Assembly (NCBI GenBank): GCA_943787745.1
Contig: CALSNJ010000007.1
Coordinates: forward strand, 186,001-250,000
Reading direction: 5' to 3'
DNA from: an uncultured Alphaproteobacteria bacterium
GTDB lineage: Bacteria > Pseudomonadota > Alphaproteobacteria > UBA6615
Length of the DNA: 64,000 bases
Below the pieces are notes generated by a model that was given only the letters and a program-made list of their open reading frames with translations, was not told the origin of the DNA and did no database searches. The first letter of the stretch is position 1; each line of letters opens with the position of its first letter. The translations under genes were made by a program, and so were the position numbers. Positions 47,834-58,131 of the stretch are shown piece after piece.

Positions 47834-48724
47834 GTGAAAAACCTGTTTCGATTGGGCTGTTTGGTGTTTGTGGGGTTGCCGGTTGCGCTGGCGCTTCCGG
47901 CATGGGCGCAATCTGCTGGGGTTGGAAGCGGCCAGATCACAAATGCCACGGATGAATGTGATCGTTCGACCATCGACTACGCCGATGAAGAAGGGCTGAC
48001 GCTGGAGGAGAAGATCCGGCGTATGGATCTTGCCCTGACCCGGTCCCTGAATCGGTATGATGAGTGCGCGGCGCCCGACGACGACAAGCTTGATCCGCAA
48101 GACCCCGAAACACCCGCCGAAAGTGCCGAAACGGAATCCGGCGGCGCCGATGGAGCAGAAAATGCGGCTGCGGAAGGTGAATCCGCCGAAACTGCTGAAG
48201 GACAATCTTCCTCCGCATCACCCGGAGATATTTCCGGGAATGAGCCCGACCCGGATCCGAGCCAAAATCCATCCGTTACAACCTTGCCGAGCCTGACCCC
48301 ACCCCCTTCGGGGTCTGAGGGAACAAACGGCACGCAGGCGGGTTCGGCGCAGGCCACGGGTGTCGAGGGTGAAGGCGAAGATATGCCCTCAGTTTCCGGG
48401 TCTCCTTCTGTTGCTGCAGGTGATATTGCCGGAGACGAACCCGACCCTGAGCCTGTAGAACAGACGCGGGCATCGGGCGCGGGTCGTGAAATTGATCCAG
48501 AGCAGGCCGGTCAAGGAGGCGGTACAGGCGACGGCACGGTTGCCGGAACCCGGACGCGTGTCCTGAACAATGGAAAGCTGCCCGAGGACATTCCGCCATC
48601 CGACAATGACAGTGTGTTGGAGGCGCAGATACGACAAGCTGCGATTGACGAGCCTGACCCGGAGCTGAAAAAGAAACTCTGGAACGAATACCGCAGATAT
48701 AAGGGCTTACCGCAGGTCAAATAG
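47834..48724 (+). CDS. Secreted acidic protein, first gene of the vWA/proton-channel operon (unknown function)
   Basis: A 296-residue protein with a signal peptide (NLFRLGCLVFVGLPVALALPAWAQ, cleavage after AWA). A helical domain follows (DECDRSTIDYADEEGLTLEEKIRRMDLALTRSLNRYDEC, with a Cys pair at both ends), then about 150 residues of Glu/Ser/Ala/Gly/Pro-rich low-complexity sequence. A short conserved-looking tail ends ELKKKLWNEYRRYKGL. The middle is probably disordered and extracytoplasmic. It starts at GTG 47834 behind GGGAG. No known family. Position as first gene of a compact eight-gene run suggests a periplasmic partner in the same complex. Confidence 0.75.
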   Translation: MKNLFRLGCLVFVGLPVALALPAWAQSAGVGSGQITNATDECDRSTIDYADEEGLTLEEKIRRMDLALTRSLNRYDECAAPDDDKLDPQDPETPAESAETESGGADGAENAAAEGESAETAEGQSSSASPGDISGNEPDPDPSQNPSVTTLPSLTPPPSGSEGTNGTQAGSAQATGVEGEGEDMPSVSGSPSVAAGDIAGDEPDPEPVEQTRASGAGREIDPEQAGQGGGTGDGTVAGTRTRVLNNGKLPEDIPPSDNDSVLEAQIRQAAIDEPDPELKKKLWNEYRRYKGLPQVK

Positions 48725-48745
48725 CGGTTGGTGATGGAGAGATCG

Positions 48746-50002
48746 ATGCGTTTTTTGATGAAGAGAATGGGTGTCTATGCGGTCTGTTTCAGTTTGGTGC
48801 TGACCGGCTGTGTCACCAATCAGGGTGGAGCGGGCACGGCTGGCGCGGGCGGGCCAAACGTGGGTCCTCAGCTGTCATCAATTTTTGACAAGACCGGTGA
48901 AGCGGTCGTCGACCCGGGTAAGCCCAAGCTCGATATCGTGGTTCCGGTCTTTGACCCTGGACTTTCGGAAAATGCCGAGGATTACAAGGAAGAGGGTGTC
49001 TGGCCCGAATTGCGTCGTGCAGAAGCCAACCGGTTCGCGGTCAAACTGAAAGAAGCACTCGAGGATACAGGAGCATTCGGGGCTGTTCGCGTCGTGCCGG
49101 ATCAGACGGCAACCGGCGACTTGTACGTGCTGGGAAAGATTCTCGAATCGAATGGCGAGGATGTGGAGATACAGGTCGAAGTGACAGACATCACCGGCGA
49201 CAACTGGTTTACCCGGACGTTTGATCACACCGTCGATCCGGGGTTCCACAAAAATCCGCGCAACGAAGGCCGCGACCCTTATGACCCGGTTTTCGCCGAA
49301 GCCGCCAACCGCATCGCTTTGGAACTGGAAGATTATGAGGTTGCCGATCTGGAGACGATCCAGCATGTGACCGAGTTGCGCTTTGGTTCAAATTTTACCG
49401 AGGAAGCGTTTGCCGAGCATCTCGATGCAACAGGCCGCACCGTTGAGCTTGTCAGTTTCCCGAGCGAAGCGGACCCGATGCTCCGCCGGACGCGGGCCGT
49501 GCGTGTCCGCGATCAGCTGTTCGTTGATGGCTTGCAGGAACACTATCGAACCTTCAGTGCCAATATGCAGGATAGCTACCTTGTATGGCAGGAACAAAGC
49601 TTGCTGGAGCTCGAGGCCCGAAGTGAGGCGAACGAGAAGGCGGCAGGGCAGGCTGCATTGGGTGTTCTAGCGATCGGGCTGAGTGTCTTGGCCATCATGG
49701 CGGGGGCTCGATCGAGCTCGTCGGCCGGCGCTACGGCCGCCACAACGGGTGCCATTGTTGGCGGCGTTGTGGGCGCGAAACTTCTCACGGACAGTTTCCA
49801 AACCAGCGAGGAAGCCAAAGTGCATCGCGACGCGCTCGAGGAACTTGGCCAGTCGATCGATATCGATCTGGCCCCCCGTGTGATCGCGTTCCAAAAAGAA
49901 ACCGTCGAATTGACGGGGACCGCCAAGGAGCAGTTTGCCCAGTGGCGGGAGTTTCTGCAGAAAATTTTCGAGCAGGAAAAGACCCCGCAGGTACAGCTCT
50001 AG
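48746..50002 (+). CDS. Outer-membrane-type lipoprotein of the vWA/proton-channel operon
   Basis: A 418-residue protein beginning with a signal and lipobox (CFSLVLTGCVTN; the +2 residue is Val, so not Asp-retained). The N-terminal half looks like the strand-rich CsgG/LpoB-type nucleotide-free fold (KPKLDIVVPVFDPGL, then DLYVLGKILESNGEDVEIQVEV), a weak guess. The C-terminal half has a hydrophobic Gly/Ser-rich segment (LGVLAIGLSVLAIMAGARS then GATAATTGAIVGGVVGAKLL) with glycine-zipper character, so it may enter the membrane. Start at ATG 48746 is 5 bases after GGAGAG; in-frame ATGs at 48734 and 48728 lack one. It is 21 bases after the first gene. Confidence 0.75.
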   Translation: MRFLMKRMGVYAVCFSLVLTGCVTNQGGAGTAGAGGPNVGPQLSSIFDKTGEAVVDPGKPKLDIVVPVFDPGLSENAEDYKEEGVWPELRRAEANRFAVKLKEALEDTGAFGAVRVVPDQTATGDLYVLGKILESNGEDVEIQVEVTDITGDNWFTRTFDHTVDPGFHKNPRNEGRDPYDPVFAEAANRIALELEDYEVADLETIQHVTELRFGSNFTEEAFAEHLDATGRTVELVSFPSEADPMLRRTRAVRVRDQLFVDGLQEHYRTFSANMQDSYLVWQEQSLLELEARSEANEKAAGQAALGVLAIGLSVLAIMAGARSSSSAGATAATTGAIVGGVVGAKLLTDSFQTSEEAKVHRDALEELGQSIDIDLAPRVIAFQKETVELTGTAKEQFAQWREFLQKIFEQEKTPQVQL

Positions 50003-50015
50003 GTCTGCGCGTTCC

Positions 50016-51569
50016 ATGCTTCTCGAAAAACTCGAACAGGAAAGCCGCGCATCCCGGCGGCGACGGCTGATCGTTGCTGGCGGATTTGCCGGCGCGGCGG
50101 TTTTGCTTGGGCTGTTTCTTGTCGCGGTTGTTGTTGTCTGGCCCAAGGTCGAGGGCACAGCTGTAACTGCCGAACCGGTCCGCGAGGACGGGAGTCCTGT
50201 GCGCGTGGATGCGCGGGCTCCGGATGACAATGTTACGCGCCTATCGGCCAACCCTTCACCGGGAACGGCTCGGGATAGCGAGATTTCAGGCGAGATATCG
50301 CAAGGCAATCCGGTTTCACCGCAGCAATTCGACGATGACACGGCGTCGCGCGATCAGTTCAAGGCGCTGTTCGAGACCTTCCAGAAGGACATCGAGCCCG
50401 ACATTTCATCCACTGCCTTTGCCGGTTGGGACGCCGCCACGCAGCAAGACGTCATCGCGCAAAAAGAGTCAGCCTTCGCGCAGTTCTCCCGCGGGCAATA
50501 CAGCGAGGCGTTGGAAGGTTTGGAAGCTGCGACGTCGCAAGCCCAAAAATCTCTCGATGCACGTGATCTCGCTTTTGATGCGGCCTTGCGTGAGGCGCGA
50601 TCGGCTTATGACACAGACAACTATGATCAGGCCCTGCCGCAGATCACGCGGGCCCGCCAGTTGAAGCCGGACTCGGCCGAGGCTGAGGCTCTCGAAGCTG
50701 AGGTGGCGCGACTTCCAGAGATTTTGAATGCGATCTCGAAGGCCTCGGTGGCGCGTGTTGAAAACGATCTGGAGGCTGAGGAAAAATACCTTGGCGAGGC
50801 CCTCGCGCTTGACGCCGATCGGTCGGAGCTTGCGTTGCGGCGCCAGGAGATTCAGATAGAACGGAAGGAACGGGCATATGCTGGCCGGGTTCAGTCCGGA
50901 TTGGCGAATGTTCAGTCACGCCGGTTGTCGAGTGCGCGCGCGGATTTGAGCGCAGCGCGTGAGATGTTTTCGGATCGCAGCGAGACGCGATTGCTGTCCC
51001 GGCAGGTTGCTGCGCTGGCCGAGAAGATGGAGTTTGAAAAGATGATGGCATCGGCCGCCGATGCGCGCCGTGCCGATGACTGGATCGCTGCCGAGGATTT
51101 TTATGCGCGCGCGGGCGCAATCGTGCCCGATGATCCGCAGGTCAATGGCGGCTATCAACTTGCCGGGGAGATCAATCAACTGCAAACCGAGATGGTGAAG
51201 GTGCTCGACAAGCCTGAACGATTGGCATCAGAGAGCGTTGCTGCGCATGCATCAGCGCTTGTGTCGAAAGCGCGCGATATTGCCGATTTGAGCCCCTCGC
51301 TCGCCACGCGAAGCGAAGAGGTTGCAGCGCTTGTGAAGGCCTATGGAACCAAGGTTTCAATTCGTATCCTGTCCGATGGGATTACAAGAATTTCCGTACG
51401 CGGCGTCGGGCAGGTTGGCGCGACAACGGACCGAACCATCGAACTAAGGCCGGGGAGCTACACATTCGAAGGTGCGCGTGCGGGCTTCCGTTCCAAACTT
51501 ATTCAGGTTGATATTCCGCCCGGCACTGAAGGTCTGGTGTTGGAGATTTATCCCGATGAGCGCGTTTGA
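50016..51569 (+). CDS. TPR-containing inner-membrane protein with a C-terminal PEGA-like domain
   Basis: A 517-residue protein anchored by one N-terminal helix (LIVAGGFAGAAVLLGLFLVAVVVV) with a short basic cytoplasmic tip (KLEQESRASRRRR), so the rest is periplasmic. A flexible acidic linker is followed by a TPR-like helical solenoid (YSEALEGLEAATSQAQKSL, YDQALPQITRARQLKPDSAEAEALE, AEEKYLGEALALDADRSE) over about 150-380. The end (SIRILSDGITRISVRGVGQV and TIELRPGSYTFEGARAGFRSK) is a PEGA-like beta unit, as in the next gene. Its ATG is 13 bases after the lipoprotein and its 3' end overlaps the next gene by 14 bases. Confidence 0.78.
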   Translation: MLLEKLEQESRASRRRRLIVAGGFAGAAVLLGLFLVAVVVVWPKVEGTAVTAEPVREDGSPVRVDARAPDDNVTRLSANPSPGTARDSEISGEISQGNPVSPQQFDDDTASRDQFKALFETFQKDIEPDISSTAFAGWDAATQQDVIAQKESAFAQFSRGQYSEALEGLEAATSQAQKSLDARDLAFDAALREARSAYDTDNYDQALPQITRARQLKPDSAEAEALEAEVARLPEILNAISKASVARVENDLEAEEKYLGEALALDADRSELALRRQEIQIERKERAYAGRVQSGLANVQSRRLSSARADLSAAREMFSDRSETRLLSRQVAALAEKMEFEKMMASAADARRADDWIAAEDFYARAGAIVPDDPQVNGGYQLAGEINQLQTEMVKVLDKPERLASESVAAHASALVSKARDIADLSPSLATRSEEVAALVKAYGTKVSIRILSDGITRISVRGVGQVGATTDRTIELRPGSYTFEGARAGFRSKLIQVDIPPGTEGLVLEIYPDERV

Positions 51570-53574
51570 AGAGGGACTGCGGCAGGCCCGCAGACGTCAG
51601 GTTCGGTTTTACCTCGGGGGCGTGATTGGTCTGGTCGTCATAGGCCTTGTGGTCATCGGGGTGTTGGCGTCGACCAGCGGAACGGTGATGAAGATCGCAC
51701 CGGAAGAAGCCGAACAGCTCGGATCTGTAGAGTTGGTTTCCGGGATAGGTCTGACGGTTGGCACCACTGTCTACAGCCTGAGCGGATCTCCTGTCGTCCG
51801 CGTTGCAGCGGAGGGGTTTCAAGAGGTCGTGCATACAATCAGGCCCGAAGAGGCCGGACGTATAGTTGCGGTGCGGCTTGAGGCTTTGCCGGGGCGAATT
51901 GATGCTGCAACAACCCGTGATTTGCCCGAAACCCGCTGGAATCTTGACGGGACGCAGATCGCGGTCGGCTCAGCCATTGATGTCGAGCGCGCCGCCGGCA
52001 GCTATACACTGAACGTCGATCATCCGCATTTTCAGTCCGTTGAGCAGCTTGTTGAACTGCGACGTGGCAAAACCGAAGAAATTCGCCTCGATCTGAATCC
52101 GGTCGCCGGGCGGATATCCATCAAGTCCGAACCGTCCGGGGCCGAGGTGTTTTTCGACGAAACAAGTCTGGGTTTAACCCCTCTTGAATTGCCGATGGCA
52201 GGCGGGGCCTATGCGGTTCGTATTGTTGGCGAAGATCGTCAGCCGGTTGAAGAAGATATTCAGATCACCAACACGGCACCTGTTCTGGAACGTCGCTACA
52301 TTCTGAAGCCGCTGACCTCGGTCTTGCGCATTCGTACGATCCCGGCAGGTGGCCAGCTCCTTGTCGATGGGCGCCGTGTTCCGGAGTCCGGAGAAATCGA
52401 AGTGACCGCCAATGAAGATCACACGGTGACCTATGTGCGGCCCGGCTATCGTTTCAAAAGCGAGACCGTGCGCCTGACATCAAAGGAACAACGCGAGCTG
52501 ACAATGCAGCTTCAGGAAGAGCTTGGCGTTGTCGATATTCGGACCACCGCGGGTGCGGATATTATCGTGGACGGCAAGAAGGTGGGAACGGGCAGCGCCG
52601 AGCTGCAGCTGCAGGCGGTCCCGCACAAGATCGAGTTGCGCAAAAAGGGCTATCGCACCGTCCGCAAGACGGTCACACCATCCGGCCAACGTAGTCTCGT
52701 CATTCGAGAAGAACTGATTGGCGAAACCGCGGCACGACTGGCTGAATCCCCACGTTCCTATACGAATTCTGTTGGTATCAAACTCAACCTGTTTGAACCT
52801 GGCGCCCTTGTTATGGGGGCCCCCCGAAGCCAGAAAGGTCAGCGCGCCAATGAGTTCGAGCGGCGGGTCAGCCTGACGAAAGCCTTTTATGCTTCGCGCC
52901 ATGAGGTGACCAATGGACAGTTCGCACAGTTTCGCGGCGGGCGGCGCGGTGGGACCTCTCGTCCTGTTACAGGGGTTTCCTGGGTTGATGCTGCCGAATT
53001 TGCAAACTGGCTCAGCGTGCGCGAGAAACTGACCCCTTTCTATCGCATTTCCAATGGACGGCTTGCGGATGTCAGTCCGACCAGTGACGGCTACCGTTTG
53101 CTCAGTGAAGCGGAATGGGAATGGCTGGCGCGGAAGGCCGGGCGCCCCGCCCAGACCGTTTTCACCTGGGGTGACACGGCGACCGTGCCGCGCAAGGCAG
53201 GGAATATCGCAGATGAATCTGCCAATGGGCTCACGCGGTTTTACGTGCCCAAATACAACGACGGCTATGCCAGAACGGCACCGGTCGGAAGTTTCCCGGC
53301 AGAAATGTCAGGGCTTTTTGACCTGACGGGCAATGTGAGTGAATGGGTGCATGACTTCTATTCCTTGCAGCCGCCGGATCGTGGGCAGGTCGAGATCAAT
53401 CCGCTCGGGCCCGGTTTTGGAGACTCCCATGTGATCAAGGGCTCCAGCTGGAAGTCGGGAACGCGGACCCAGTTGCGGGCCGCTTATCGAGAAGGTGGAT
53501 CTCAGGGCAGCGATGAAATCGGATTTAGAATAGGAAGGTATCTGCATGGTGCACAAAGCAATCTCGCGCGATAG
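51556..53574 (+). CDS. PEGA-repeat and SUMF1/FGE-domain membrane protein without catalytic cysteines
   Basis: A 672-residue protein. A short basic N-terminus and a helix at about 18-38 (GGVIGLVVIGLVVIGVLAS) anchor it, followed by three PEGA repeats (about 184-252, 255-321, 324-387) and a PEGA-like unit at 112-182. From about 410 a SUMF1/formylglycine-generating-enzyme-like domain runs to the end, with EPGALVMGAP, HEVTNGQFAQF, PVTGVSWVDAAEFANWLS, YRLLSEAEWEWLAR, GLFDLTGNVSEWVHDFY and GSSWKSGTRTQLRAAYRE. The latter segment holds the catalytic Cys pair in true FGE, but here no cysteine occurs anywhere in the protein. It therefore probably serves as a binding or structural module. It overlaps the preceding gene by 14 bases and the small gene by 29. 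Confidence 0.82.
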   Translation: MSAFEEGLRQARRRQVRFYLGGVIGLVVIGLVVIGVLASTSGTVMKIAPEEAEQLGSVELVSGIGLTVGTTVYSLSGSPVVRVAAEGFQEVVHTIRPEEAGRIVAVRLEALPGRIDAATTRDLPETRWNLDGTQIAVGSAIDVERAAGSYTLNVDHPHFQSVEQLVELRRGKTEEIRLDLNPVAGRISIKSEPSGAEVFFDETSLGLTPLELPMAGGAYAVRIVGEDRQPVEEDIQITNTAPVLERRYILKPLTSVLRIRTIPAGGQLLVDGRRVPESGEIEVTANEDHTVTYVRPGYRFKSETVRLTSKEQRELTMQLQEELGVVDIRTTAGADIIVDGKKVGTGSAELQLQAVPHKIELRKKGYRTVRKTVTPSGQRSLVIREELIGETAARLAESPRSYTNSVGIKLNLFEPGALVMGAPRSQKGQRANEFERRVSLTKAFYASRHEVTNGQFAQFRGGRRGGTSRPVTGVSWVDAAEFANWLSVREKLTPFYRISNGRLADVSPTSDGYRLLSEAEWEWLARKAGRPAQTVFTWGDTATVPRKAGNIADESANGLTRFYVPKYNDGYARTAPVGSFPAEMSGLFDLTGNVSEWVHDFYSLQPPDRGQVEINPLGPGFGDSHVIKGSSWKSGTRTQLRAAYREGGSQGSDEIGFRIGRYLHGAQSNLAR

Positions 53575-53725: not shown

Positions 53726-54493
53726 ATGGCATCTGCAATCAAAAACACCCTCGCATTGGTCGTTTCGATCATCGTCGTTCATCTGATTTATGTTGGCTAT
53801 ATCTGGCCCGAATCAACACAAGTGATCGAGGCTGCGCGCGCAGCCGGCCAAAGTGCCCCGCGCGATCTGCTGGTGATCCTCAAGGATTGGGAGCAGGAAA
53901 TCTGCATCATCATGATGCTGTGGGGGACATTCATGATCCTCGACAAATGCTTTGCGATCCTGAAGGACCGTTACCTGTTCAATGTTGATTTGCTCGACGG
54001 TGCGGCCGAAGACGAGGGCGACCTCCTCACCATGCTCGACACGCTGGAGAAACTTCCCGACCGTATCCGGACCACACCGCTTGTGCGGACCCTTGCAGCC
54101 AGCCTTCGGCGCTTCCTGATTACCGAAGATGTGCAGAACACATCAGAGACCATCGATGCAAATGTCGAGGCGCTGGCGGTGAAACAGGAGGCTGAAAATT
54201 CCATGGTCCGGTATCTGATCTGGGCGATCCCGGCCATCGGTTTTATCGGCACCGTGCGCGGTATTGGTCAGGCATTGTCCCAGGCGGATCAGGCGCTTGC
54301 CGGTGATATCGCGGGCATGACCGAGAGCCTTGGTGTTGCCTTCAATTCAACCTTTGTGGCGCTGTTGATCAGCGTTGTGCTCATGTTTCTGCTGCATCAG
54401 CTTCAGAGATTGCAGGACTCCATGGTGACGGACACGCAAGAGTACTGCGAATCCTTCCTGTTGAACCGCATCAGCTCCGTGGGCAAAAGCTGA
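53726..54493 (+). CDS. MotA/TolQ/ExbB-type proton channel family protein
   Basis: A 255-residue inner-membrane protein with four hydrophobic helices: 8-28 (LALVVSIIVVHLIYVGYIW), 59-76 (ICIIMMLWGTFMILDKC), about 162-182 (YLIWAIPAIGFIGTVRGIG) and about 205-225 (LGVAFNSTFVALLISVVLMF). The IGFIGTVRGIG and AFNSTFVALL segments match the conserved channel motifs of TolQ and ExbB. Such subunits form a pentameric stator around two ExbD/TolR/MotB helices and conduct protons. The adjacent vWA proteins, whose single helices begin with a conserved Asp, are the likely partners. No ExbD or TolR gene is seen here. Confidence 0.85.
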   Translation: MASAIKNTLALVVSIIVVHLIYVGYIWPESTQVIEAARAAGQSAPRDLLVILKDWEQEICIIMMLWGTFMILDKCFAILKDRYLFNVDLLDGAAEDEGDLLTMLDTLEKLPDRIRTTPLVRTLAASLRRFLITEDVQNTSETIDANVEALAVKQEAENSMVRYLIWAIPAIGFIGTVRGIGQALSQADQALAGDIAGMTESLGVAFNSTFVALLISVVLMFLLHQLQRLQDSMVTDTQEYCESFLLNRISSVGKS

Positions 54494-55551
54494 GACCGCG
54501 CCGTAAATCCGAGGGGTTTAACCTCGCCTTTCTGGATGTCATGTCCTGTGGGTTGGGTGCGATCATTCTCGTGTTGATGCTCGTCAAGCACGATGTGGAG
54601 CATGTCTCGGATGAAAGCGAACGCCTGACCTCCGATCTCGAACGGCTCCAGAGCACCGAAGAGGAACTGAGCGCAAAAGTGGTGAGTGCGTTGCGCGCGA
54701 AAGCGGCGACAACGGGACAGGTTGAAGCCCTGGAGAGTGAGATATCCCGAGTCCGGCGCGAGCTTCAGGAAAAACAGGTGGAGATCACTGCACGTCGCAG
54801 TGAGGAAAAAACCCTCGAGGAAACGATCAAGACCATCGAGGTGCAGGACAATACCGATATTGTCGAAAACCGGCAGGTCGGTGAAGAAAACTACGTGATC
54901 GGATTGCGGGTTGAAGGCAAACGTATCGGTATTCTCGTCGACAGTTCGGCGTCCATGACCGAAGAGAAGCTGATCGATATCATCCGGAGCAAGAATATGG
55001 CTCCCGGTGTGCGCATTCAGGCTCCCAAATGGCAGCGCACACGTCGGGTTGTTGCATGGCTGCTGGCGCGATTGCCGCGCGATACAAGTGTACGCGTGGT
55101 GGCATTTGGGGAGACAGCGCAGGGCCTTGGAAACTCGGCTGGGGTGTCGGGAGGTGACGCCGCTGGATTGTGGCAGATTGTTTCAGATATGAACAAGATC
55201 GTCCCGGGGGGTGCGACGAACCTTGCGGCCGGGCTCAAGGCCATTTCGGCGCACAAGCCGACCGATCTGTATCTGATCACCGATGGTCTGCCGACGGCGG
55301 GAAATTCGGGATATCGCAGCCTTAACCCGTTCTCTGGCTGCAGCGCCTTGTGGGGCGGCTCCACCTCGATATCAGGTGAATGCCGCGCGCGCCTGTTTCG
55401 CCATACGGTCAACAATGCCGGTATGGATAAGGTCCGAACCAACGTGATTCTGCTTCCGCTTGAGGGCGACCCTGAAGCGGCGGCACATTTCTGGCGCTGG
55501 ACTGCGGCAACAAACGGGTTGTTGATCAGCCCCGCGGAGAGCTGGCCTTGA
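54490..55551 (+). CDS. vWA-domain membrane protein 1, ExbD/TolR-like stator partner (predicted CTG start)
   Basis: A 353-residue protein if translation starts at CTG 54490, whose CTGA overlaps the stop of the channel gene. The first ATG (54541) would cut the conserved anchor FLDVMSCGLGAIILVLMLVKH, which begins at residue 14 with Asp16. A coiled coil (about 35-110) follows, then a von Willebrand A domain with an intact MIDAS (D151-S-S-A-S155 in IGILVDSSASM) and VAFGETAQG, GGATNLAAGL, DLYLITDGLP. The paralog downstream shares the anchor and overall plan. The anchor plus helix-first Asp is the plan of ExbD/TolR/MotB, hence the stator reading. Substrate unknown. Confidence 0.78.
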   Translation: MRPRRKSEGFNLAFLDVMSCGLGAIILVLMLVKHDVEHVSDESERLTSDLERLQSTEEELSAKVVSALRAKAATTGQVEALESEISRVRRELQEKQVEITARRSEEKTLEETIKTIEVQDNTDIVENRQVGEENYVIGLRVEGKRIGILVDSSASMTEEKLIDIIRSKNMAPGVRIQAPKWQRTRRVVAWLLARLPRDTSVRVVAFGETAQGLGNSAGVSGGDAAGLWQIVSDMNKIVPGGATNLAAGLKAISAHKPTDLYLITDGLPTAGNSGYRSLNPFSGCSALWGGSTSISGECRARLFRHTVNNAGMDKVRTNVILLPLEGDPEAAAHFWRWTAATNGLLISPAESWP

Positions 55552-56504
55552 AGCGAAAATCCCGCGAGTTGGAAATATTCAGCCTGTCGTTTCTCGACAT
55601 CATTTCCTGCGGGTTTGGTGCGGTCGTTCTGCTTGTTCTGATTTCGACCTTCGCGGAATCCGTGCTGCCGGACTTCACATCGGAAACCAAGCAGGCGCTT
55701 GATCAGGTGTTGGCGGCTGAAGCACGTGTTGAGGCATTGGAAAGCGCGCTCGTGCAGGAAACCCAGACTTTGGAAGATATCCAGGACAGGTTGACCGAAG
55801 AGAGCACGAAAGCAGCCCGGGCCAAGAACCAACTACGTGCGGCGAATGCGCAAGCGGAAAGCCTCGATGAGAACCTGGCAGGTCTGGAGTTGGTTGAGCG
55901 TTCTTTGCGCGACAACCAGCGCGCGAGCATCACGCCCAATACCTCGGAGACCCGGGATGAGGAAGTCGGTGGTATACCTGTCGACAGCGACTATGTGGTC
56001 TTCATCATCGATACCTCGGGCAGCATGCAGGCCATCTGGTCGCGCGTGACCAGCGAGGTCGAGAACATCATCAACATCCACCCCCGCATCAAGGGCTTCC
56101 AGATCCTCAATGACAATGGCACGCATCTCGTTAGTGGGTATGCCGGGCGCTGGATACCCGACACCAAAGCACGCCGTGACAGCGTTATTCGATTGTTCCG
56201 GAACTGGAAGAGTGCGTCGAACAGCAGCCCTGTGGAAGGGCTTGAAGTTGCCCTGAAACGCTATGTGAACCCGAACCAGAAAGTCTCGATCTACATCTTT
56301 GGCGATGACTACACGGGTTCGAGTTACGACACGGTGATTCGCACCCTCCGGCGGGCAAATGCGAACCGCATTACCGGAAAGCCGCTGGCCCGTGTGCACG
56401 CGATCGGATTTCTCTCGCCAACATCCAACGGTCGTTTTGAGACCCTGATGCGTGAAGTGACGCGGCAGAACAATGGGACATTCATCGCGCTGCCGGTCCG
56501 CTAG
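55548..56504 (+). CDS. vWA-domain membrane protein 2, ExbD/TolR-like stator partner
   Basis: A 318-residue paralog of the previous protein. It starts at TTG 55548 overlapping the upstream stop (TTGA), with GGAGAG at good spacing. Basic tip, anchor FLDIISCGFGAVVLLVLIS (Asp17), coiled coil (about 45-120), then a von Willebrand A domain with MIDAS (D155-T-S-G-S159 in VFIIDTSGSM) and IFGDDYTGSSYDTVIRTLRR. Residues after the anchor should be periplasmic. The two vWA proteins may form a heterodimer, like ExbD2 or MotB2. It ends the operon; the next gene is convergent. Confidence 0.82.
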   Translation: MKRKSRELEIFSLSFLDIISCGFGAVVLLVLISTFAESVLPDFTSETKQALDQVLAAEARVEALESALVQETQTLEDIQDRLTEESTKAARAKNQLRAANAQAESLDENLAGLELVERSLRDNQRASITPNTSETRDEEVGGIPVDSDYVVFIIDTSGSMQAIWSRVTSEVENIINIHPRIKGFQILNDNGTHLVSGYAGRWIPDTKARRDSVIRLFRNWKSASNSSPVEGLEVALKRYVNPNQKVSIYIFGDDYTGSSYDTVIRTLRRANANRITGKPLARVHAIGFLSPTSNGRFETLMREVTRQNNGTFIALPVR

Positions 56505-56512
56505 AATTTTGG

Positions 56513-57193
56513 CTAGCGCAGGAAGCGAATCCATCGCCAGAGATTGAGCAGGCTGACGAGTGACCCGGCGACATAGGTCAGCGCGCAAGCCCTGAGGATA
56601 CTGCGTGCTGCGGGCATGTCTTCGGGCGGCAGATATCCGCCCGAGTCAAGAATCGGAAGCGCCCGCCCGAATGAGGCGTCGAACTCTACCGGCAGCGTGA
56701 TCAGGTGAACGACAACCGCGCTGCCCATTGTCGCGATTCCCGCAGCTGCCATGAGGAGACCAAGTCCGGGCGCTTGCGTGACCGCGCCGAGCAGGATCGA
56801 GCCGAAAAGGATTGCCGAGCCGATCTTCTGAAGACGGGCCGCCCATTTGACCATATCGGTTCGTGCGCGCAGAGGCGCATATCCGTTGCCGTCCTGCAAG
56901 GCGTGTCCGACCTCGTGGGCGGCGACCGTGACGGCGGTCAGCGAGCGGCCGTCGAAATTGGCTTCCGAAAGACGGACCGTCTTGTCTTCCGGGTCATAGT
57001 GGTCGCCCCTTTCGGTTTGTTCGACACGCACCTCGGACAGGCCGGCCTCGTCGAGCAGGTGCCGGGCGAGTTCGCCGCCGGTGCCGGGGAAATCAGGGCG
57101 ATCTGCGGCATGCCGGGACAACACCGTCCGCGCCCAGAGGCTGGGGCCGAATACGATGGCAAGCAGCAGTACGATGAGGATGAGCCAGGGCAT
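56513..57193 (-). CDS. Zinc membrane metallopeptidase, YugP family
   Basis: A 226-residue membrane protease of the Zn_peptidase_2 family. It has an N-terminal helix (LILIVLLLAIVFGPSLW), GTGGELARHLLDEAGLSEV, then the zinc-binding AAHEVGHALQD (HExxH) and C-terminal membrane helices (AILFGSILLGAVTQ, IATMGSAVVVHLITLPVEFDAS, where the Glu is the likely third ligand). ATG 57193 is chosen; the frame extends upstream through non-conserved sequence inside the permease gene. It lies 11 bases after the permease stop and may be co-transcribed. Substrate unknown. Confidence 0.88.
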   Translation of the reverse strand: MPWLILIVLLLAIVFGPSLWARTVLSRHAADRPDFPGTGGELARHLLDEAGLSEVRVEQTERGDHYDPEDKTVRLSEANFDGRSLTAVTVAAHEVGHALQDGNGYAPLRARTDMVKWAARLQKIGSAILFGSILLGAVTQAPGLGLLMAAAGIATMGSAVVVHLITLPVEFDASFGRALPILDSGGYLPPEDMPAARSILRACALTYVAGSLVSLLNLWRWIRFLR

Positions 57194-57204
57194 ATGCGGG
57201 AGTC

Positions 57205-58131
57205 CTAGCGGCGCACTGAGCGCGGATCGAGCGCATCCTGAAGGCCATCCCCGAGAAAATTGAAGGCCAGAACCGTCACAAAGATGACGGCACCGGGCCA
57301 GACTGCCAGCGCGGGCGCGCGGGTCGCGAGTTCCTGGGCGTTGGTCAGCATGTTGCCCCAACTGGGGATCGGCGGCTGAATGCCGAGCCCCAGAAAGCTT
57401 AGAACGGATTCAAGCAGAATCACGGATCCGATCGAAAGCGTGGTGGCCACAATGATGGGGGACACCACGTTGGGCAGGATATGCCGGAGCATCATGGTCG
57501 TGGACCCGGCACCCATGGCCTCAGCTGCGCGCACAAATTCCCGTGTCCGCACTGACAAGGTGGCCGCGCGAACCAGACGGGCGACCGTGGTCCAGCCGAC
57601 AATCGCGATAATGAAAACGATGCGATAGAGGCTCGCCATTTCCGAGGTTGCGATGCTTTCGGGAATACCGATTTTGGTCAGGTCGATCGCGGCAAGAATG
57701 ATCAGCAGTGGCAACAAGGGCAGGGCGATCACACCGTCCGTGGAACGCATCAGGAAGGTGTCGAGCCACCCGCCGCGGTAGCCCGCCAACAATCCGATGG
57801 TTGTGCCGATCACGGCTGCACCGATCGCGGCCACCAGACCAACGAGAAGTGAGATGCGTCCGCCATAGAGCAGGCGGATGAAGACATCACGACCGGCTTC
57901 GTCGGTGCCGAGCCAATGGATGGCACTGGGGGCGGCGTATTGGTTGAACAGATCCACCCGGGTTGCCTCGATCCCGAGCAGGCTTTCAAAGGCCGGGGCG
58001 AGCAGCGCGAGTGTGGTGATGGCAACAAGGATCACCGCGCTGACCATGGCGGACCGGTTGCGCCGCAGGCGCTTCCAGAAGAGGTTGGGTTCTGCCGTCG
58101 CGACGCCCGGGGACGTTTGGGCGATAGTCAT
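57205..58131 (-). CDS. Oligopeptide/dipeptide-type ABC transporter permease (DppC/OppC)
   Basis: A 308-residue permease with an OppC N-terminal tail (FWKRLRRNRSAMVSAVILV) and five or six helices. The transmembrane coupling loop shows the EAA motif (FVRAAEAMGAGSTTMMLRHILPNVVSPIIV), and the upstream segment HWLGTDEAGRDVFIRLLYGGRISLLVG is typical of this subfamily. It overlaps the DppB-type gene by 4 bases. No ATPase subunits are present in the window, so they must lie elsewhere. Confidence 0.93.
   Translation of the reverse strand: MTIAQTSPGVATAEPNLFWKRLRRNRSAMVSAVILVAITTLALLAPAFESLLGIEATRVDLFNQYAAPSAIHWLGTDEAGRDVFIRLLYGGRISLLVGLVAAIGAAVIGTTIGLLAGYRGGWLDTFLMRSTDGVIALPLLPLLIILAAIDLTKIGIPESIATSEMASLYRIVFIIAIVGWTTVARLVRAATLSVRTREFVRAAEAMGAGSTTMMLRHILPNVVSPIIVATTLSIGSVILLESVLSFLGLGIQPPIPSWGNMLTNAQELATRAPALAVWPGAVIFVTVLAFNFLGDGLQDALDPRSVRR

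Follow-up and report, generated by a model that had tools for sequence, protein, structure and literature searches.

A pair of vWA proteins encoded at the end of a seven-gene cluster from an uncultured alphaproteobacterium probably forms the axle of a motor of the 5:2 type, driven by the proton motive force, as judged from sequence. Motors of the TolQ/ExbB/MotA kind drive swimming, the uptake of nutrients and the maintenance of the outer membrane, and the moving dimer of such motors usually ends in a piece that binds peptidoglycan or a partner. A preliminary description of this DNA had proposed that the two proteins, here called vWA1 and vWA2, replace ExbD, TolR or MotB, and this reading is now well supported by the adjacency of a TolQ-type gene (66/67 loci among the matches listed), the absence of a spare ExbD gene, the invariance of the anchor Asp and of the pore threonines, and the occurrence of the two proteins as pairs. 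The replacement by a vWA pair has already been published as a prediction in 2025 (PMC12204202), and it is confirmed here on a new example.

Organization of the Gene Cluster

The cluster lies on the + strand of the window, i.e., the whole 64-kb stretch of DNA that was analysed. Its first gene (47834-48724) encodes a secreted or periplasmic low-complexity protein with a signal-peptide-like start, which gave no match in a Pfam search, and homologues of which occupy the equivalent position in most of the full-length neighbourhoods. This gene is followed by those of a lipoprotein (48728-50002), with the lipobox LTGC and its Cys kept in 9/9 aligned sequences, an inner-membrane-anchored protein with weak TPR matches (50016-51569), and a second inner-membrane-anchored protein (51556-53574), which combines four PEGA domains (PF08308, 7e-30) with a C-terminal FGE/SUMF1-type domain (PF03781, 2e-35). 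The last three genes of the cluster encode a TolQ/ExbB/MotA-type motor subunit (53726-54493; PF01618, 5e-13, above the cut-off), vWA1 (54490-55551), the CTG start of which overlaps the TolQ-type stop (CTGA), and vWA2 (55548-56504), the TTG start of which overlaps the vWA1 stop, each of these two junctions being a four-base overlap. A convergent gene with a HEVGH zinc-peptidase motif is located directly after vWA2, on the - strand (56513-57361). Scans of the sequence for repeats, promoters and terminators yielded nothing that clearly exceeded chance, and a literature search for a phenotype of the operon found none.

Anchor, Coiled Coil and Fold of the vWA Proteins

The two reading frames were confirmed at the positions given in the preliminary description, together with their motif and domain order. 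Each protein has a membrane helix that opens with FLDxxSCGxGA, a long coiled coil, and a vWA domain with MIDAS residues, an arrangement borne out by the sequences, the structural models and Foldseek. The N-terminus of vWA1 reads LRPRRKSEGFNLAFLDVMSCGLGAIILVLMLV, with the codon of Asp16 at 54535-54537 (+ strand), and that of vWA2 reads LKRKSRELEIFSLSFLDIISCGFGAVVLLVLIS, with the codon of Asp17 at 55596-55598 (+ strand), these residues being the candidate proton carriers. The DNA pattern of the anchor occurs twice in the window and in none of 100 shuffles, and the two proteins are paralogues, related across residues 2-157 with an E-value of about 6e-8.

The AlphaFold2 models of the two proteins have mean pLDDT values of 74.5 and 78.0, with coiled-coil helices at residues 22-115 and 44-127 and low values, of about 40-60, in the anchor region. 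The assignment of the vWA domain is weak through Pfam, where both proteins score below the cut-off, and clear through the fold, given that the best Foldseek matches to solved vWA domains reached E-values of 2.5e-8 for vWA1 and 1.8e-7 for vWA2. In a profile search of solved structures, vWA2 matched coiled coils only, and the TolQ-type profile had no match. The ExbD profile PF02472 does not match vWA1, and it matches vWA2 only at an E-value of 0.034 and in the wrong region (226-276). When the anchors were compared with a TolR position matrix, neither vWA1 nor vWA2 obtained a significant score, and a true MotB also failed, which leaves this test without power. This agrees with a 2025 survey of MotAB relatives, according to which ExbD, TolR and similar B subunits typically escape detection by sequence (PMC12505986).

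At the other end of vWA1, the C-terminal motif SPxxxWP (55528-55548) is nearly invariant, with the final W and P present in 108/108 of the matches listed, and this conservation suggests a docking tail.

The MIDAS Sites and the Side of the Membrane

The MIDAS motifs DSSAS and DTSGS, which had been described as intact, are present and conserved, as are the further positions T243 and D265 of vWA1 and S226 and D253 of vWA2. All of the following codons are on the + strand and all of the counts refer to the matches listed. In vWA1, DSSAS (residues 151-155; 54940-54954) has its D in 106/110 sequences, S153 in 110/110 and S155 in 107/110, with a T or S at Thr243 (55216-55218) in 105/110 and D at Asp265 (55282-55284) in 110/110. 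The D, S and S of the vWA2 motif DTSGS (residues 155-159; 56010-56024) are kept in 105/105, Ser226 (56223-56225), the likely third MIDAS position, is S in 102/102, and Asp253 (56304-56306) is D in 101/101. Because these residues are conserved, both vWA proteins are likely to have a metal site. The earlier proposal that the C-terminal part had been exchanged for a metal-binding adhesion domain thus stands for the exchange itself, a vWA domain occupying the place of the ExbD/TolR or OmpA-type domain, and its metal binding is likely from the residues.

The N-terminus is basic and an acidic stretch follows the helix, in line with the positive-inside pattern and with an N-in anchor. Within an insertion in the vWA domain of vWA1, the cysteines C284 and C298 are both present in 16 of the matches listed, both absent from 92 and present singly in two, in a set of related sequences that are not independent. 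Their joint gain and loss is as expected for a periplasmic disulphide, and the charge pattern and the cysteine pair hint that the vWA domain is periplasmic.

The CTG Start of vWA1

The vWA1 gene starts with a CTG at 54490, and its first ATG (54541) is located inside the helix, so that a gene caller restricted to ATG, GTG and TTG places the start at 54541 and drops the Asp. Among 115 related copies of vWA1, the start codon is ATG in 71, GTG in 11, TTG in seven and CTG in 24 (the copy in the window and 23 more). The CTG is always part of CTGA and always lies exactly 13 codons ahead of the F of FLD; 21 of these 24 copies have no in-frame ATG, GTG or TTG upstream, and in 11 of the 24 the TGA also terminates the TolQ-type gene. 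Annotated vWA1 proteins may be missing the Asp owing to this conserved CTG, which would hide their link to a motor. At a guess, with starts as weak as CTG and TTG, less of the axle than of the pentamer protein might be made.

Conservation and Distribution

The anchor pattern, with about 0.1 chance matches estimated from the number of specified bases, was searched for in 84,980 genomes and was found in at least 118 stretches, in the Alpha-, Gamma- and Deltaproteobacteria and the Opitutales, with Pseudoalteromonas and Bowmanella among the Alteromonadales members. Both of these genera, like Sneathiella, are cultivated marine relatives in which the operon is present. The persistence of the Asp in homologues, on which the preliminary description had made its reading depend, was borne out in 102/102 copies of vWA1 and 105/105 of vWA2 among the matches listed. 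As the pattern itself demands an Asp, this conservation is in part built into the scan, and three checks were used for this reason. The paired anchors that do not fit the pattern (34 of vWA1 and 59 of vWA2, among the matches listed) all have the Asp. The copies found through whole-protein homology have it in every complete anchor, even where the SCG motif is missing, as in FLDIISSAFAA and FLDIMASGLGA. Finally, the Asp is also retained in a divergent lineage whose anchor reads SALDLFASALG and which again has a TolQ gene and two vWA genes.

A homology search detected the system in 16/398 genomes across the phylum and 11/385 in the class, with its own genome counted, and it is therefore uncommon and patchy. 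Some genomes have two copies of the pair (contig C123 of genome G002, locus L018; contigs C20 and C21 of G015), one of which is strongly diverged, with 37% identity in G002.

Operon Partners Across Loci

The partners of the pair were counted, among the matches listed, over those loci that have room for the gene in question. By this measure, vWA2 follows vWA1 in 91/91 loci and a TolQ-type gene precedes them in 66/67, with the PEGA/FGE gene found in 56/59, the TPR protein in 30/31 and the lipoprotein in 6/6. The three loci without the PEGA/FGE gene include both of the judgeable Opitutales loci.

The FGE domain of this partner lacks the catalytic cysteine pair of the family in 10/10 aligned sequences, with the motif GSSWxxGTxTELRxSYR, which contains no Cys. 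Because the catalytic cysteines are missing, a role of this domain in binding is more likely than an enzymatic one. Among the NCBIfam models, the whole protein matches GldK best, at 81.8 bits versus a cut-off of 350.

A gene-sized gap separates the TolQ-type gene from vWA1 in 60/82 loci, among the matches listed, and where it was read, it holds one conserved gene. This extra gene, of about 410-490 aa, is found in gammaproteobacteria and Opitutales (L167:9913-11208, L171:8692-9921, L172:9934-11403); its gammaproteobacterial form has no Pfam match, and it might, judged by eye, have an actin/Hsp70-type fold with an FHA-like tail. In the two gammaproteobacterial loci L167 and L171, the flanks also include two lipoprotein-like genes, a peptidase that is of the M48 type by its motif, and a TPR protein that weakly matches the TonB C-terminus. 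The divergent second lineage, with its two Asp-helix vWA proteins, occurs in a genome of the same family (L225:8247-13783), where the gene order is a Ser/Thr kinase with a beta-helix, a TolQ-type gene, vWA, FHA and vWA, and in another genome (L227), with a TolQ-type gene, vWA, FHA and vWA.

The TolQ-Type Partner and the Motors of the Genome

The TolQ-type protein has two presumed pore-lining threonines, T176 (54251-54253) and T209 (54350-54352), both on the + strand, which align with Thr residues of the genome's own TolQ and are each T in 85/85 of the matches listed. In the assembled protein, they would form a ring.

The genome has four PF01618 genes. Its sole ExbD-family gene is the TolR beside tolQ, and two further PF01618 genes adjoin MotB genes that bear the Asp (YADFVTAMMAFF; TFADAVTLLLAFF), which leaves the gene of the vWA motor as the only one of the four without a TolR or MotB partner, with no spare ExbD or TolR gene. 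The same economy is found in the genus, where each of six genomes has exactly one ExbD-family gene. As no ExbD or TolR is left over, vWA1 and vWA2 are the best candidates for the dimeric axle of this motor. The Zorya anti-phage defence was also considered, and was rejected, given that the best match was just ZorA2, at an E-value of 0.001, with no ZorB-like match.

A Proposed Model of the Motor and Its Alternatives

In the model that we infer for the complex, its stoichiometry and use of protons, its periplasmic side, metal and ligand, and any movement, the TolQ-type protein would be a pentamer and the central dimer would consist of one copy each of vWA1 and vWA2. The membrane helix of each vWA protein would lie inside the pentamer pore, its Asp presumably oriented towards the Thr ring, and the flow of protons would turn or tilt the dimer, a movement that the coiled coil could transmit to two periplasmic vWA domains. 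These domains might then bind another product of the operon through one of its acidic groups, probably via a metal at the MIDAS; the candidates for this partner, as a guess from gene order, are the lipoprotein, the TPR protein and the PEGA/FGE-like protein. Our confidence in this step of MIDAS and ligand is much less than in the axle. Such a trans-envelope machine would pull on, or rearrange, a structure linked to the outer membrane.

The make-up of the axle is the point at which one of the alternatives departs from this model, given that vWA1 and vWA2 each have a complete anchor and domain, as would two homodimeric motors, one of vWA1 and one of vWA2, that share the TolQ-type pentamer. We consider this arrangement improbable, as the loci have one of each protein in a fixed order (91/91 among the matches listed), and no locus with a single type was found, among the same matches, where room allowed; the axle is probably a heterodimer. 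In a further alternative, the complex is a static scaffold or sensor, in which the Asp has a structural or assembly role and the TolQ-type protein just holds the vWA pair; the conservation of the Asp and of both pore threonines, as in working motors, speaks against it. A role in signalling would fit the FHA and kinase gene links of the second lineage, and we grant this static reading a similarly small chance.

It is very improbable, by contrast, that the vWA proteins are side transducers outside the motor, comparable to TolA or TonB, with the genome's TolR or a MotB as the central dimer. Among vWA proteins, a TolA/TonB-like family that has an SHLS-type helix does exist (PMC12204202), but no histidine is present in the anchor helix of either vWA1 or vWA2, the Asp is invariant, the sole TolR adjoins tolQ, and the MotB genes adjoin their own motA genes. 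The published pairs were set apart from the SHLS family on these same points (PMC12204202).

Relationship to Published Systems

The axle reading places the pair next to a published group, in which vWA proteins that occur in pairs, and that have a TolR-like helix with an Asp, are proposed to replace TolR beside tolQ-like genes, and for which an AF3 complex model of such "TPH-vWA" pairs is available (PMC12204202, Mol Biol Evol 2025; Fig. 4c,d). The present pair has every defining feature of this group that was tested, the Idiomarina proteins of that study being compared by description only: a heterologous vWA pair, a tolQ-like neighbour with pore threonines, no tolR, exbD or motB in the cluster, the Asp helix, the vWA fold, and an occurrence in Proteobacteria and Verrucomicrobia. 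The function of the motor-linked vWA proteins is called unknown in the same study, the main text of which is silent on the CTG start, on PEGA and formylglycine-type genes, and on a lineage linked to FHA and kinase genes.

The system shares with ExbBD, TolQR and MotAB a pentamer-type subunit with pore threonines and a partner in which the Asp opens its single N-terminal membrane helix; it differs from them in its vWA end and in an anchor without an ExbD profile match. The TolA/TonB-like transducers of the Tichowtungia type are likewise membrane-anchored vWA proteins linked to a tolQ-like gene but, unlike the present pair, have an SHLS-type helix and separate tolR-like genes (PMC12204202). A membrane motor beside an FGE-fold protein is also found in GldKLMN of type IX secretion, from which the operon differs in its GldK score under the cut-off and in having no GldL or GldM match among its proteins.

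The present case adds a branch from the Alphaproteobacteria and a conserved operon that also encodes a lipoprotein, a TPR protein, and a PEGA protein with an inactive-looking FGE domain. It further adds the conserved CTG start, the covarying Cys pair, and a second motor lineage beside FHA genes. These may amount to a distinct trans-envelope machine, with a 5:2-type motor, an obligate heterodimeric vWA axle, a dedicated and co-inherited lipoprotein/TPR/PEGA-pseudo-FGE set, a metal-dependent catch on one of these partners, and a sister lineage connected to signalling through FHA and Ser/Thr kinases, a tentative proposal in which our confidence is slightly under even. If true, the metal-dependent adhesion end would show that the end piece of the moving dimer is swappable, and it raises the tractable question of what the vWA pair holds, for which the conserved operon supplies candidates.
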